Shown here in pieces: positions 51,203 to 60,007 of a stretch of DNA of 60,007 bases. The first letter of the stretch is position 1. Each line of letters starts with the position of its first letter. The position numbers and the translations under genes are program-made. The stretch spans positions 1 to 60,007 of the forward strand of contig CAILJQ010000235.1 of the NCBI GenBank assembly GCA_903834625.1. The letters are read 5' to 3'. The notes under the pieces were generated by a model. The model saw only the letters and a list, made by a program, of their open reading frames with translations, was not told where the DNA came from and did no database searches. This DNA is from an uncultured Bacteroidota bacterium. GTDB taxonomy: Bacteria; Bacteroidota; Bacteroidia; UKL13-3.

Positions 51203-54200
51203 TTGGTTGTTAAATCCAATATTGAATTGCGTACAAAAATACTTCTTACATTTCTAATTGTTTGCCACTATTTGAGTTCTTTTGCGCAAGAACTCCCCTT
51301 TGAGCATCTTAATGAACAAAACGGACTGCCTCAAATAAGTATAAGGGCATTGTATCAAGGGAGGTTAGGTAATTTATGGATAGGTACAGAAAATGGACTT
51401 TTCAGGTATGATGGAAATAATTTCGAATCTTATTTCAACAAGAATGATTCAAATGAAGTAAACCTTAAAGTAATCCAAATAAGAAGCAATTATGATTTCA
51501 TGTATGCCCTTGGTAAAAATAATATTTGGCAAGTAGGCGTATTATCTGGAAAGGAAAAAAGCTTTACCATTCCTTACAATAGAATCAAAAACCCCAGTAA
51601 AATATGGCCTCTACAAAAAGAGGTACTTATTGGTGCAGAAAATGGACTTTGGCTCTTCAACCCAGAAAACGAATCCTACAAACAACTCAAAATATCAACA
51701 CCAGTTACAGAAATTTGTCAGCTAAAACAAGGCAAAATACTTGTAAGCACTGTTGAACAATTTTATGTATTTTATTCCTTTACCAAAACCCTGGTTCCCT
51801 TATACTACAGGCCCCAATCTTATATTAGGCATGTATATGTAGAAAATGAAAATACTATCAGTTGGATTGAAGCCGATAATTATTTTCATAAAGGAAACAT
51901 AACCAAGAATTATGGAATAGAAACCTCACAATCCCTTTTGTTAAGCAGACATTCTGAAAGCAGTTCTTTCACTAAATACAATCAAAAATATTATCTAGGA
52001 TTGGAGAATGGTTTATTGAGTTTTGGAGAGGATGGCTCTCAAAATCTTCTGGTTCAAACCGATGACGATTTTCGCTCTTTATCACAAAACAATGTAACCT
52101 GTCTGCTTGCAGATGCAACTGGTAATTTATGGGTAGGTACAAAACTTGGAGGGATTAATTTACACAACCCCTTTCAACATAAATTTGGAATGGTTTCCCC
52201 GCAAGTTTCTGCACGTTTTTCAAGGTGTAAAGAGATATTAAGTTTTGAAGAATTGGCAGATGGTAAAATCATTTTTATGAGTTCTGTGGGTGGCTTAGGG
52301 ATTTTTGACCCTGAGAGCAAAAAAATCACGGAATGGATTGCGAATGGTCTCAATGGAAATTGCATGATTGCCGAATCACCTTTAAGAAACTCATTTCTGA
52401 TTGGCACACCAGATGGACTATTTAGATTTCAAATGAAAAGTCAAACCTTTGAATTTATCTCCACAAAATCTTCTCAGAAAAACTTTGAAAGTGATATCAA
52501 ATGTATTATTCCAGCAGAGGGGAACACCTATTGGATGGGCGGGGATGATGGCCTTTTTCTATTTGACCCAGCACTCAAAAAAACACTTTTATATTATGGA
52601 ATTGGAAATTCATCCTTAGGTTCAGACCGGATAAAATGCTTATACAAAAAATCACAAGATGAATTGTATATAGGCACTGCGGCAGGTTTGTATGTTTTAA
52701 ACCCATCTAGTGAAAAATTCACAATGAAACAACTTAATGGGAAGCAAAAACAAGCCATTGTTTCAGGAATATCTGAAGATTCAACTCATAAATTATGGGT
52801 TGCCACCACAACAGAAGGACTTTACATTCTAAACAAAAACAATAGCATTAAACACCTCGGAAAGGAAGAAGGTTTAGGAAGTAACCAAGTATATTCACTT
52901 AAAATAAACTCAAAACTTAACCAATGCTGGATAAGCCTTAACGGCGGACTATCTATGATTGAAACAGAAAAGTTTAAAATAACCAATTATGAATTGCATG
53001 ATGGTTTACAAGGAAGTGAATTTATTGACGCGAGTTCTTTACAATCCAAAAATGGAAGAATATTTTTTGGTGGGGTTAATGGATTTAATTTCTTTTACCC
53101 CTCAGAAATTAAAAACGACACCAATGAATGTAGGGTACAAATAAAAGGAATAGCACTTTTTAATAAGCGACAACAATATGCAAACTATTATCTCGTACCT
53201 ATTGATAAAAACTATATAGCCTTTGAATTTGCAGCAATGGATTACTACCTAAAGGGGAGTCATACTTTTTACTATCAACTTGAAGGTTTGCAAACAGACT
53301 GGACAGAAATTGGAGATAGGAGGTTTGCGAGTTTTGGACAATTACCCCAAGGTGATTATGTTTTTAGGGTTAGGGTAAAAAACCCAGATGGCAAAATAAG
53401 TAAAAAAGAGGCTGCGGTCTATTTTAGCATTGTTCCAAAGTTTTATCAGCAGTGGTGGTTTAAACTTTTGATAGCTTTGGCCTTGTCTGGAACAATTGCT
53501 TTTGTTATTTATTACCGCATACAAACTGCTTTAAAGGAAGAACAAGATAAAGGCAAGCAAAGTAGAATGATTGCCGAATTGGAATTAAAAGCCCTCAGGG
53601 CGCAAATGAATCCACATTTTATTTTCAATTCATTAAATTCTATTCAAGATTTTGTGCTCAATAACGAAGGCCAACTTGCCGCAAGGTACCTAAGTAAATT
53701 CGCAAGATTGATTAGGATGATTCTAGATATTTCGGAACAAACATTTGTAAATATCCAACTCAAAATTGACTTTTTAAAATTATACATAGAATTAGAATGT
53801 TTGCGCTTAAATAACTCCTTTACCTGCCATTTTGATATTGATCCAGAGCTAGACTTAGACGCACTTATGCCAACCTTAATTATTCAACCTTACGTTGAAA
53901 ATGCCATATGGCATGGGTTACAATACAAACAAGGAGAAAGAAAACTTTCTATCAAAATGGAAATGGACGGAGATAAAATGGTACGTGTTGAAATCCTCGA
54001 CAACGGGATTGGTCGAAAAGAGGCCATGAGAATTAAGGAAAATAAAACCCAAATTCACGAATCAAAAGGGGCAAGAATATCAGAAGAAAGAATTAATACC
54101 CTTAATAAGCTGTTTGGTTCTAAACCTAAGGTTGAAATTTTTGATTTATTTGACGAAAATAATTTAGCTTGCGGGACAAAGGTGGTATTGCAAATTCCAA

Positions 54201-54214
54201 TAATTCATGGGTAA
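51203..54214 (+). CDS. Propeller sensor histidine kinase of LytS type
   Basis: This protein of about 1000 residues starts with a signal segment ('ILLTFLIVCHYLSSFAQ') and then has a two-component-regulator propeller sensor ('GNLWIGTENGLFRYDGNN' is an early blade; 'GNLWVGTKLGGINLHNP' a later one). A Y_Y_Y domain ('YQLEGLQTDWTEIGDRRFAS') and one transmembrane helix near 755-775 follow. The LytS-type kinase core has the phospho-acceptor in 'MNPHFIFNSLNS' (H805) and the ATP-binding 'QPYVENAIWHGL'. There is no ATG before the signal peptide: TTG at 51203 is the first available start, and a later TTG near 51224 is also possible. It overlaps the LytTR regulator gene by eight bases, so the two form a coupled pair. 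Confidence 0.9.
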   Translation: MVVKSNIELRTKILLTFLIVCHYLSSFAQELPFEHLNEQNGLPQISIRALYQGRLGNLWIGTENGLFRYDGNNFESYFNKNDSNEVNLKVIQIRSNYDFMYALGKNNIWQVGVLSGKEKSFTIPYNRIKNPSKIWPLQKEVLIGAENGLWLFNPENESYKQLKISTPVTEICQLKQGKILVSTVEQFYVFYSFTKTLVPLYYRPQSYIRHVYVENENTISWIEADNYFHKGNITKNYGIETSQSLLLSRHSESSSFTKYNQKYYLGLENGLLSFGEDGSQNLLVQTDDDFRSLSQNNVTCLLADATGNLWVGTKLGGINLHNPFQHKFGMVSPQVSARFSRCKEILSFEELADGKIIFMSSVGGLGIFDPESKKITEWIANGLNGNCMIAESPLRNSFLIGTPDGLFRFQMKSQTFEFISTKSSQKNFESDIKCIIPAEGNTYWMGGDDGLFLFDPALKKTLLYYGIGNSSLGSDRIKCLYKKSQDELYIGTAAGLYVLNPSSEKFTMKQLNGKQKQAIVSGISEDSTHKLWVATTTEGLYILNKNNSIKHLGKEEGLGSNQVYSLKINSKLNQCWISLNGGLSMIETEKFKITNYELHDGLQGSEFIDASSLQSKNGRIFFGGVNGFNFFYPSEIKNDTNECRVQIKGIALFNKRQQYANYYLVPIDKNYIAFEFAAMDYYLKGSHTFYYQLEGLQTDWTEIGDRRFASFGQLPQGDYVFRVRVKNPDGKISKKEAAVYFSIVPKFYQQWWFKLLIALALSGTIAFVIYYRIQTALKEEQDKGKQSRMIAELELKALRAQMNPHFIFNSLNSIQDFVLNNEGQLAARYLSKFARLIRMILDISEQTFVNIQLKIDFLKLYIELECLRLNNSFTCHFDIDPELDLDALMPTLIIQPYVENAIWHGLQYKQGERKLSIKMEMDGDKMVRVEILDNGIGRKEAMRIKENKTQIHESKGARISEERINTLNKLFGSKPKVEIFDLFDENNLACGTKVVLQIPIIHG

Positions 54215-54983
54215 AGAGTTAAAAACAATCATTGTGGAAGATGAGGCAAGGGGCAGAAATGCACTCAAAGCTATGTTGAATCACATTTCAGATGTAAAGC
54301 TTATAGGTGAAGCATCAAATGTAGATGAAGGTATTGCACTCATTGAAAACGGAGATCCAGATTTAGTGCTTCTCGACATAGAAATGCCTTTTAAGAATGG
54401 GTTTGACTTATTGGCTGCCATTCCCAATCGTAAATTTGACGTTATTTTCACCACTGCATACGATTCTTATGCCATTAGAGCATTTAAATTCAGTGCCATT
54501 GATTATTTGCTTAAGCCCATTGATCCCGAAGAATTAAAATGTGCCATTGAAAAAACTGCTTCTAAAAGGCAAAACGACATACATCAACCTCAGTTACAGA
54601 TAAATAACCTGCTTGAAAATTTAAAATCAATGAACAAGCAGAATTTTAAATTATCTTTACCTACATTCGAAGGGTCGTTGTTTATTCCGATAGATGATAT
54701 CATTAGATGCGAAAGTGATGCAAATTACACTCGCTTCCACATCAGAAATGAGACGAAGCCAATTATGGTTTCTAAAACATTGAAGGATTATGATGAATTA
54801 TTAACTGATTATGGATTTTGTAGGGTACATCACTCTCATTTGATTAACCTAAAATTCATTAAAAAGTATATTAAAGGAGAAGGAGGCATTGTGGTTATGT
54901 TGGATGGAGCGGAAGTTGAAGTATCTCGAAGAAAAAAAGAGGTGTTTCAAAAGTCACTCGAAAAGTTCGCCAGTATTATTTAA
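54207..54983 (+). CDS. LytTR-family response regulator
   Basis: The 258-residue regulator has an N-terminal receiver ('TIIVEDEARGRNALKAML', phospho-acceptor D57 in 'LVLLDIEMPFKNG', Thr and Lys in 'FTTAYDSYA' and 'YLLKPI'). The C-terminal LytTR DNA-binding domain has 'IIRCESDANYTRFHI', 'FCRVHHSHLINLKFIKKYI' and 'VEVSRRKKEVFQ'. It is the output of the propeller kinase encoded directly upstream; the start codon lies inside the kinase gene, eight bases before its end. Its target genes cannot be seen here. The GAACC half of the recurrent palindrome (TGAACCAAAT) follows its stop codon. Confidence 0.93.
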   Translation: MGKELKTIIVEDEARGRNALKAMLNHISDVKLIGEASNVDEGIALIENGDPDLVLLDIEMPFKNGFDLLAAIPNRKFDVIFTTAYDSYAIRAFKFSAIDYLLKPIDPEELKCAIEKTASKRQNDIHQPQLQINNLLENLKSMNKQNFKLSLPTFEGSLFIPIDDIIRCESDANYTRFHIRNETKPIMVSKTLKDYDELLTDYGFCRVHHSHLINLKFIKKYIKGEGGIVVMLDGAEVEVSRRKKEVFQKSLEKFASII

Positions 54984-55333: not shown

Positions 55334-56977
<1,644 letters not shown>

Positions 56978-57142
56978 TTAAAAGGGCTGCGAAGGTAACT
57001 CAATTTTCCCGCTTTTTTCAGCCATGATTCTACAGACCTCAATCTTATTATAGCAGAATGCGCCCGTATTTTGCAAAAAATGTCGCAAATCGCGCAAATA
57101 CCTGAACTGAATTTTGACCATTAAAAGGAAGGCAAAAAAAAA

Positions 57143-57208
57143 CGGGGTCGATTTCTCGAACCCCGCTTTAGCCTATGAAACAAATTGCACTTCTACCCCT
57201 AGGTGCAA
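57143..57208 (-). terminator. Two-hairpin terminator element, copy A
   Basis: Read on the minus strand, a first hairpin (TTGCAC/GTGCAA plus CTA/TAG around GGGG; plus-strand positions 57185-57208) is followed by a linker containing GCCTATGAA on the plus strand (57171-57179). The second stem is CGGGG/CCCCG plus TCGA/TCGA with one bulged base around a GAAA loop (57143-57165), running into nine T. It is the distal copy of a pair; copy B lies at 57330-57394. Confidence 0.75.
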
Positions 57209-57249
57209 TTATCTTGACAATGTTTTTTGATTTATTTCTGAACCAATAG
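57175..57249 (+). other. Short hydrophobic open frame overlapping copy A
   Basis: On the plus strand an ATG at 57175 opens a 24-codon frame reading MKQIALLPLGAIILTMFF and ending with TAG at 57247-57249. In copy B the same start is followed by a one-base deletion and a stop after eight codons. The frame may be a chance product of the structured element; I do not call it a gene. Confidence 0.2.
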
Positions 57250-57329
57250 CATTGATTAATTTTCTATATGCAAGTTAGGCCTTTTGGAAATTTCGTCAAT
57301 GGAAATTACTATACAAATAAAGTAAAAAA

Positions 57330-57394
57330 CGGGGCCGGTTACCCGGACCCCGCTTTAGCCTATGAAACAAATTGCACTCTACCCCTAGATGCAA
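57330..57394 (-). terminator. Two-hairpin terminator element, copy B, directly after the RND gene
   Basis: On the minus strand it starts nine bases after the RND stop codon. Hairpin 1 is TTGCA/TGCAA plus TCTA/TAGA around GGGG (57372-57394). The linker holds GCCTATGAA on the plus strand (57358-57366). Hairpin 2 is CGGGG/CCCCG plus CCGG/CCGG with one bulged base around a GTAA loop (57330-57352), running into T. Relative to copy A, both stems show compensating changes. Confidence 0.8.
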
Positions 57395-57403
57395 TTTTTA
57401 TCT

Positions 57404-60007
57404 TTACTCAGCTTGTGCATGGCTTTTAACCAAAGGCACACCGAGTCTCTTTTTCAAATTGTTCGACAAAAGTAACATGACAGGAACTAATATCAAAGTT
57501 AAAAAAGTTGCAAAACTCAAACCAAATATCATTGTCCACGACAAAGGTCCCCAGAAAGCCACATTATCACCACCAAAGTGTATGTGAGGATTGAATTCAC
57601 TGAATAATGAAACGAAATCGATGTTTAGTCCTACTGCCAATGGAATTAGTCCTAAAATGGTGGCTGAAGCTGTTAAAATAACTGGCGTCATCCTTGTTTT
57701 TCCGGCCTCAATAATGGCTTCTTTCATTTCCATTCCTTGCTCCATAAGCAAATCTGTGAACTCTACCAATAAAATACCATTCCTAACCACAATACCTGCA
57801 AGTGCAATTACCCCAACGCCTGTCATTACAATAGATATATCCATTTTGAAAATAGACAAGCCAAGTAATACACCAATGATGGAGAAGAAGATTTCTACAA
57901 AAATGATTATAGGTTTTGAGATGGAGTTAAATTGAGTTACCAAAATCAAGAAAATCAATCCAAATGAAATTAACATGGCATTTCCAAGAAACGCACCAGT
58001 TTCAGCTTGTTTCTCTTGCTCACCTGTCATAGTTACCATTACGTCTTGTGGTAATGGGTAACGTTTAACAGCCTTTTGAATTTTGGCTACAATTTCATTG
58101 GCGTTATATCCACTTAATACATTAGATGATAAGGTAACCAAACGCTTTTGATTTTTGCGCTTGATGCCTCCATAAGTATTACCATAGGTAACTTTTGCAA
58201 CAGATGATAAAGGAATTTGGCGAATCATTCCACCCATGTTCATATCACGATAAGTTATTTTTAGGTTCATCAATGCGTTTACATTATTACGCTGATCAAA
58301 GGCGTAGCGCAATTGAATTGGATAATCATCATTCGCATCTTTGAATTTAGAAACTTCTGTTCCAAAAATGGCATCGCGCAATTCTTTACCAATTACAGCG
58401 GTTGAAATTCCTTCTCTATTGGCGCGCTCTCTGTCAATCTCTACGATAATTTCTGGCTTGTTTGTTTGCAAATCAGATTTCAACTCCTCAATTCCTGGGA
58501 TTCCCAATGAATCTAAGTAACGTTTAATATCTTTAGATACGGCTGATAATTGATCAAATTCATCTCCCGTAATTTCAATATTAATTGGCTTACCCGTTGG
58601 CGGACCACCTTGCTCCTGCTCTACGGTAATTTCAGCACCTGGTATTCCTTTGGTTGCCTCTCTAATCTTATCTAAATACTCAACCGTGCTGGCGCCATTT
58701 CTTTTACCAAATGGAACAAAAGCAACCGTAACTTTACCCAAATGCGGACTGGTACTAAAGTCGAAACTTTGAGGATTATTTGCACCAACAGCCACATTGG
58801 AAATAACCGATTCAACCATAGGATTTGAATCACCAACTACTGCAAATATTTTATCTTCAATCAAATGGGTGATTGAATCAGTATAGACTTGATCTGTGCC
58901 TATTGGTAAGGCAATATAAGCATAAACAAAGTTTGGATCACTTTGGGGGAAGAATACTACTTTCGGACTTCGCACCATGGTTAACCCAATAGAAAGGAAA
59001 AATAAAAGTACTGTAGCTCCAATAATCAAATAAGGTCTGCTACCTTCTAATGCCCATATCAATAACTTCTTGTAACGCTCTTGGAAAGCTGGCCAACTTT
59101 TATCTTGGAATGTTTGAATCATGCCATGTAATACAAATCGGTTCAGACAGAATAAGCCGTAGAGTGTTAAAGTTAAATTGCCCAAGCCAAAATTGCCTGC
59201 GATATAACTTAACAATGCCACCACAACAAATACAACTGTTGTTATAATAAAGCCTTTGGTGATTTTTCTTTTCTTTTCTCCTAAGTGATGAGGCTTCATA
59301 AAATCAACTGCAAAAACAGGGTTGATAATATAGGCAACCAATAAAGATGCAAGTAGGGTTACAATCAATGTAATTGGTAAAAAGAACATGAATTTACCAA
59401 TAACACCTTGCCAAAAAGCTAGAGGAATAAAAGGTGCTAGGGTTGTTAATGTTCCACTTAAAACAGGTAAAAACACCTCACCTGCGGCCATTTTCGCCGC
59501 TTTTACAATGGGCACCTTTCCGTGGTCAAAAATTCTATGGGTATTTTCAATTACCACAATGGCATCATCTACCACAATTCCTAAAGCCAATAAGAATGAA
59601 AATAAGACAATCATGTTTAAGGTAAATCCAATGGCAGGCATAATCAAAAAGGCCACGAACATGGAAAGTGGAACCGACATGGCCACAAAAATGGCATTGG
59701 TTGTTCCCATAAAAAACATGAGAATAATAGTTACCAAAATAAATCCAATGATAATGGTATTGATTAAGTCATCGAGGGTAACTTTGGTTTTGTCTGATTG
59801 GTCACCAGTGATAGTAACTTTAAGGCCTTTAGGGAAGTAATCATCCTGCATTTCCTGAGAAATTACCTTAATTTTATCTGAAGCATCAATCAAATTCTGA
59901 CCACTCTTTTTAATAACGTTTAGGGTAACAACATTGTCGTGGTCGAGGCGCGCATAACTTTCTTTTTCTTTGAAGCCATCAGTTATTTTAGCAATATCTT
60001 TTAAGTA
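57404..60007 (-). CDS. RND (AcrB/HAE1-like) efflux pump permease, N-terminal part outside the window
   Basis: The frame stays open to the right edge (first visible residues YLKDIAKITDGFKEKE), so the gene is cut at its 5' end. The 867 visible residues include the first transmembrane block ('GIVVDDAIVVIENTHRI', the typical RND helix-4 Asp pair), a long second periplasmic loop, and the second transmembrane block ('ALAGIVVRNGILLVEF', 'MTPVILTASATILGLIPLAV'). The product pumps drugs, metals or lipids out across the envelope with a membrane-fusion protein and an outer-membrane channel, both presumably encoded upstream beyond the edge. The start near 59893 that could be read is only an internal codon. 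Two structured terminator elements follow the stop codon. Confidence 0.94.
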   Translation of the reverse strand, partial: YLKDIAKITDGFKEKESYARLDHDNVVTLNVIKKSGQNLIDASDKIKVISQEMQDDYFPKGLKVTITGDQSDKTKVTLDDLINTIIIGFILVTIILMFFMGTTNAIFVAMSVPLSMFVAFLIMPAIGFTLNMIVLFSFLLALGIVVDDAIVVIENTHRIFDHGKVPIVKAAKMAAGEVFLPVLSGTLTTLAPFIPLAFWQGVIGKFMFFLPITLIVTLLASLLVAYIINPVFAVDFMKPHHLGEKKRKITKGFIITTVVFVVVALLSYIAGNFGLGNLTLTLYGLFCLNRFVLHGMIQTFQDKSWPAFQERYKKLLIWALEGSRPYLIIGATVLLFFLSIGLTMVRSPKVVFFPQSDPNFVYAYIALPIGTDQVYTDSITHLIEDKIFAVVGDSNPMVESVISNVAVGANNPQSFDFSTSPHLGKVTVAFVPFGKRNGASTVEYLDKIREATKGIPGAEITVEQEQGGPPTGKPINIEITGDEFDQLSAVSKDIKRYLDSLGIPGIEELKSDLQTNKPEIIVEIDRERANREGISTAVIGKELRDAIFGTEVSKFKDANDDYPIQLRYAFDQRNNVNALMNLKITYRDMNMGGMIRQIPLSSVAKVTYGNTYGGIKRKNQKRLVTLSSNVLSGYNANEIVAKIQKAVKRYPLPQDVMVTMTGEQEKQAETGAFLGNAMLISFGLIFLILVTQFNSISKPIIIFVEIFFSIIGVLLGLSIFKMDISIVMTGVGVIALAGIVVRNGILLVEFTDLLMEQGMEMKEAIIEAGKTRMTPVILTASATILGLIPLAVGLNIDFVSLFSEFNPHIHFGGDNVAFWGPLSWTMIFGLSFATFLTLILVPVMLLLSNNLKKRLGVPLVKSHAQAE

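Follow-up and report, generated by a model that had tools for sequence, protein, structure and literature searches.

The window, a 60,007-nt stretch of DNA from an uncultured Bacteroidota bacterium, ends in a gene for an RND efflux pump permease of the AcrB/AcrD/AcrF type (57404..60007, minus strand; ACR_tran E 1.7e-127), which is cut by the contig end. Behind this gene, on the same strand, lie two copies of an RNA element, each about 78 nt long, for which the pump transcript is the host. The pump-proximal copy A (57324..57402, minus strand; 65.7 bits with our covariance model) begins at the RND stop codon. It consists of a 5' hairpin AUUGCAUCUAGGGGUAGAGUGCAAU (57371..57395, minus strand) whose loop includes GGGGUAGA, an unpaired linker UUUCAUAGGCUA (57356..57367, minus strand) that is near-invariant across genera and is a putative pairing or protein-binding site, and an intrinsic terminator GCGGGGUCCGGGUAACCGGCCCCG-U6 (57324..57354, minus strand) with a GNRA loop and a bulged U. 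The distal copy B (57135..57213, minus strand; 69.8 bits) repeats this layout, with the 5' hairpin AUUGCACCUAGGGGUAGAAGUGCAAU at 57184..57209, the linker UUUCAUAGGCUA at 57169..57180, and the terminator GCGGGGUUCGAGAAAUCGACCCCG, followed by a T-run, at 57135..57167, all on the minus strand. The order on the minus strand is 5' hairpin, unpaired linker, and intrinsic terminator, and the T-run of the terminator falls on the strand of the RND gene. Downstream of the element is an ABC-F ATPase gene (55334..56968, minus strand), which adjoins it only in the window's genus and is outside the conserved unit. The window also encodes, by our reading, a 1003-aa protein resembling sensor kinases and, after it, a LytTR-like response regulator (51203-54983, plus strand), and ORFs related to this pair occur close to the element in several species of this genus.

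The claim of two repeat copies, made in an earlier note on this DNA, is borne out. The copies are 91% identical as units, with repeat blocks of 55 nt (91%) and 19 nt (95%) at spacings of 187 and 186, and the core pattern occurs twice in the window as compared to zero occurrences expected from shuffles. Minus-strand folding of the copies gave z values of -3.45 and -5.49, and none of 200 dinucleotide shuffles folded as well. Within the terminator, UCGA/UCGA is exchanged for CCGG/CCGG while the bulged U stays, and the loop changes from GAAA to GUAA, both as previously described.

Distribution and covariation of the element

The earlier note had also called for a covariance-model search of other Bacteroidota. 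A DNA search located the element in 44 of the 64 genomes of the same taxonomic family. Covariance model R1, built from the 5' hairpin and linker, found it in 51 of the 64 genomes and in 10 of the 14 genera, although the lowest-scoring of these matches (∼22-24 bits), such as the sole match in genus g9, are doubtful. The highest number of copies found with the model in one genome was five (G009). A search at the level of the order returned the identical 64 genomes, and nothing convincing was found outside the family in 395 phylum-sampled and 395 class-sampled genomes. Of the weak matches from these samples (∼22-28 bits), those that were read had no hairpin-terminator context and were put down to chance. 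Further copies are present in related genomes and not elsewhere in this one; by both pattern and covariance-model searches, copies A and B are the only occurrences in the whole 3.38-Mb assembly. The records are named as uncultured Bacteroidota, together with one complete genome, that of Bacteroidetes bacterium UKL13-3, which originated from a freshwater lake co-culture (PMC5248499).

Alignment of the family extends the case for selection on RNA structure far beyond the two copies from which it had been proposed. In 27 aligned copies, the outer 5' stem has two-sided changes at 7/7 pairs, with 96% of cells paired. An alignment of 43 distinct model-fitted rows gave 7/7 pairs, 95.8% of cells paired, and 37 two-sided cells as compared to 7.5 in shuffles; these rows were fitted to the structure, and the 27-copy alignment is the fairer test. 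No shuffle out of 500 had a covariation score as high. Rather than being lost as more copies were aligned, an outcome that would have spoken against the proposal, the covariation grew. The terminator stem varies freely in sequence but was still identified in 67 of the 68 copies.

One previously described detail did not hold. The change from CTA/TAG to TCTA/TAGA had been taken for a compensating change in a helix, but across the family the inner CUA/UAG stretch has no two-sided change and 71% of its cells pair, no better than in shuffles. This stretch is a conserved loop, and the loop of the 5' hairpin reads GRGUAGA in 54 of the 64 distinct copies. The most conserved part of the element is one that the earlier note overlooked, the unpaired linker UUUCAUAGGCUA, which is exact in 51 of the 64 distinct copies (mean identity 95%) and is predicted to be unpaired with a median probability of 0.76-0.80. 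In a subclade of genus g8 (L038, L123, L125, L126, and L129), the loop changes from GUAGA to GUAAA together with a change in the linker from AGGCUA to AUACUA, which either a coordinated change or simple decay could explain.

Pump-linked and dispersed copies

The same RND pump is found directly upstream of the element, on the same strand, in 33 contexts, which are nearly all of the pump-linked loci with a readable upstream flank. The gene order before the element is a TolC-like gene, an adaptor (MFP), and the RND pump, while the downstream gene varies between genera and sometimes faces the opposite way (e.g., L037 and L072). A pump-linked locus has one copy or a tandem array of two or three. 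These copies follow the stop codon and reach to the terminator on the strand of the pump, with no perfect promoter box close to the stem, which is the arrangement of a 3'-UTR-derived sRNA. The orthologous pump has no recognisable element in the examined genomes of genera g2, g6, g7, and g12. In genus g9, which has no strong covariance-model match, a diverged look-alike is found at the equivalent place just after the RND stop codon (L237 and L238, from genomes G046 and G047) and consists of a hairpin around GGGGUAAGUUGG, then GUUUCUCAUAUAAUAGGUUUA, and then a terminator. The shared RND gene upstream and the g9 look-alike at the same place suggest that the element originally resided in the pump 3' UTR.

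Twelve dispersed copies lie away from the pump. Mean identity among their 5' stems is 30%, as compared to 84% for the loop and 96% for the linker. A perfect TAnnTTTG (-7) box precedes the stem by 1-7 nt in seven of the 12, including L051, L052, L053, L128, and L130, whereas such a box is missing from the 14 nt before the stem in all 56 pump-linked copies; boxes farther upstream are present in some of these loci and may be promoters. Based on mononucleotide shuffles of each upstream flank, the chance of a box 0-14 nt before the stem is ∼1.2% per copy (Fisher p 8e-7, binomial 3e-11), and since related copies are not fully independent, these p-values are guides. Three dispersed copies (L053, L127, and L128) are flanked on neither side by a gene on the same strand. 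The paralogous loci share motif, promoter, and terminator, as the siblings of a multicopy sRNA family do. Because one and the same RNA arises either at a 3' end or from a promoter of its own, the functional product would be the short RNA itself.

Several siblings have distinctive surroundings. In genus g3, a sibling copy is located directly behind an Hsp20-like heat-shock gene (L132:5965-6002, plus strand), with weak matches in G025 and G026. Another dispersed copy (L134) follows a gene that, as we read it, ends in a secretion-type tail. Two species of the window's genus carry a sibling pair with near-identical terminator and loop (L331:1-90 and L131:2000-2040), of which the L331 copy is truncated at the contig end and has a low model score. 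A DUF805 RNA, a candidate cis-regulator (L054:1891-1960, plus strand; RF03081, 70.5 bits), shares a contig with a sibling copy.

A probable small RNA family and its possible partners

Dispersed copies keep the loop, linker, and terminator and start from promoters of their own, which makes a stable 3'-UTR-derived small RNA, one of the possibilities raised in the earlier note, the best explanation for the element. From the comparative sequence evidence, we consider it probable that the element is a new multicopy sRNA family, part of which is 3'-UTR-derived and part independently transcribed, similar in kind to FopS. The element would be a family of genes encoding a small regulatory RNA of about 72-88 nt, whose mature form is predicted to consist of the 5' hairpin with the fixed loop GRGUAGA, the unpaired fixed linker, and the intrinsic terminator. 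The ancestral source would be the 3' end of the TolC-MFP-RND efflux operon, with the RNA being cut from the efflux mRNA or left as its stable end. Tandem copies may raise the dose of the RNA, and the dispersed siblings would be made from their own TAnnTTTG promoters or within the 3' UTRs of other genes. The RNA may have a protein of the RRM type, and not Hfq, as its partner. A search of 31 genomes found no Hfq, and this genome encodes one RRM protein (contig C213 of G000), which is in line with other Bacteroidota.

The linker may pair with mRNAs at or near start codons and thereby couple efflux expression to the repression of other genes. Pairing over start codons is an obvious idea because the linker complement, UAGCCU-AUG-AAA, spans an AUG; the corresponding start-codon site would be UAGCCUAUGAAA. 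In 62 genomes, the 13-mer TAGCCTATGAAAC with up to one mismatch gave 20 sites that were read, mostly within genes and with none recurring at one gene. In 19 genomes, 62 sites of the 11-mer CTATGAAACAA were read, a few of them duplicates; ∼17 of these are at plausible start codons, and no gene was common to different species. After removal of the element copies, the 11-mer pattern was rarer than its reversed control, and near-perfect linker complements were not clearly enriched over the reversed-pattern control. Pairing of the linker with the starts of the TolC, MFP, and RND genes was weak and not conserved. An exact 13-nt linker complement, UAGCCUAUGAAAC, lies over a possible start codon in G002 (contig C108; L330 ∼1190-1205), where the ORF is signal-peptide-like; the match is within chance. 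The failure of any site read to recur at the same gene across species, leaving no conserved mRNA target among them, counts against this part of the sRNA explanation. The fuller proposal, in which efflux-coupled sRNAs pair through the linker across the start codon and switch off several secreted or outer-membrane genes, is put forward as a speculative one that we consider unlikely as it stands.

The main rival to mRNA pairing is protein binding, in which a structured RNA would bind a protein, such as an RRM protein or RNA polymerase, through its loop and linker, and the copies would titrate that protein. A loop and linker this invariant, in an element whose stems vary freely, also fit protein binding, and the RRM protein encoded in this genome and the search for mRNA targets described above point the same way. 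Against this, a copy number that is usually one to three is poor for titration, and no known protein-binding motif was recognised. We give the idea a minor chance.

It is improbable that the element is merely an elaborate terminator or 3'-end protector of the efflux mRNA, doubled as a back-up and having no action elsewhere. Most copies do closely follow the RND stop codon and have strong terminators at their ends, and the two nested 3' ends suggested previously are true of the DNA layout, although secondary as an explanation. However, a terminator has no need of an invariant 12-nt linker and a fixed loop, and dispersed copies start at their own promoters, with three loci lacking any same-strand neighbour. 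A cis-acting switch or attenuator of the downstream gene is highly improbable and largely refuted by synteny: the succession of stem, fixed loop, fixed tail, and terminator is somewhat like that of preQ1-I riboswitches and permits a possible 3-bp loop-tail pairing (UAG/CUA), but this pair is broken in L047, L048, and L054, the downstream genes differ between genera or face away, and neither preQ1-I nor any other Rfam riboswitch gave a covariance-model match.

Relation to known small RNAs and implications

At gathering thresholds, no Rfam family matches the window element or 12 related loci, and a permissive search with the window element returned nothing relevant. No paper describing the element was found in the literature searched, which does not span all literature. 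FopS/GibS of Bacteroides, a family known from Bacteroidaceae, are multicopy paralogous sRNAs of ∼65-70 nt with canonical sigma-ABfr promoters, and nine are intergenic, four antisense, and one 3'-UTR-derived; FopS binds RbpB and acts on start codons or close to them, repressing susC-type mRNAs at the start codon (PMC11697453). FopS is reported to have been deposited in Rfam (PMC11697453), and while no Rfam family reaches its gathering score with the element, the Rfam copy used may or may not include FopS. Like FopS, the element is multicopy, belongs to Bacteroidota, is of mixed origin, is similar in size and promoter type, and has a conserved unpaired stretch before the terminator. Unlike FopS, in which a single-stranded 5' seed is followed directly by the terminator hairpin, the element has a covarying 5' hairpin before the linker, and most of its copies are in the 3' UTR of the efflux operon.

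The element also resembles 3'-UTR-derived sRNAs such as CpxQ in its location at an operon 3' end, its common terminator, and its proposed operon-coupled action elsewhere. CpxQ-type 3'-UTR sRNAs depend on Hfq and RNase E in Gammaproteobacteria, whereas no Hfq was found here in the 31 genomes searched. LhrC-type sibling sRNAs of Listeria are present in several copies, partly in tandem, with common fixed loop or linker motifs. The element shares these features with LhrC (a family named in PMC13350326) but is unrelated to it in sequence, host, and motif. In kind, the element resembles FopS, being a multicopy sRNA family of which one branch is 3'-UTR-derived; its sequence and architecture set it apart as a separate family, and it has no Rfam match.

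Few sRNA families have been described in the phylum outside Bacteroides, and the genomes checked here are without Hfq. The family described herein is widely conserved, is tied to an efflux operon, and would comprise both a 3'-UTR product and independent genes, so that the ends of the mature RNA can be predicted and the family itself can be put to a direct test. It would also illustrate how a single family can take in both 3'-UTR RNAs and stand-alone sRNA genes. If the linker does pair across start codons, pump expression would be tied to the synthesis of envelope proteins, in a phylum where Shine-Dalgarno sequences are little used.
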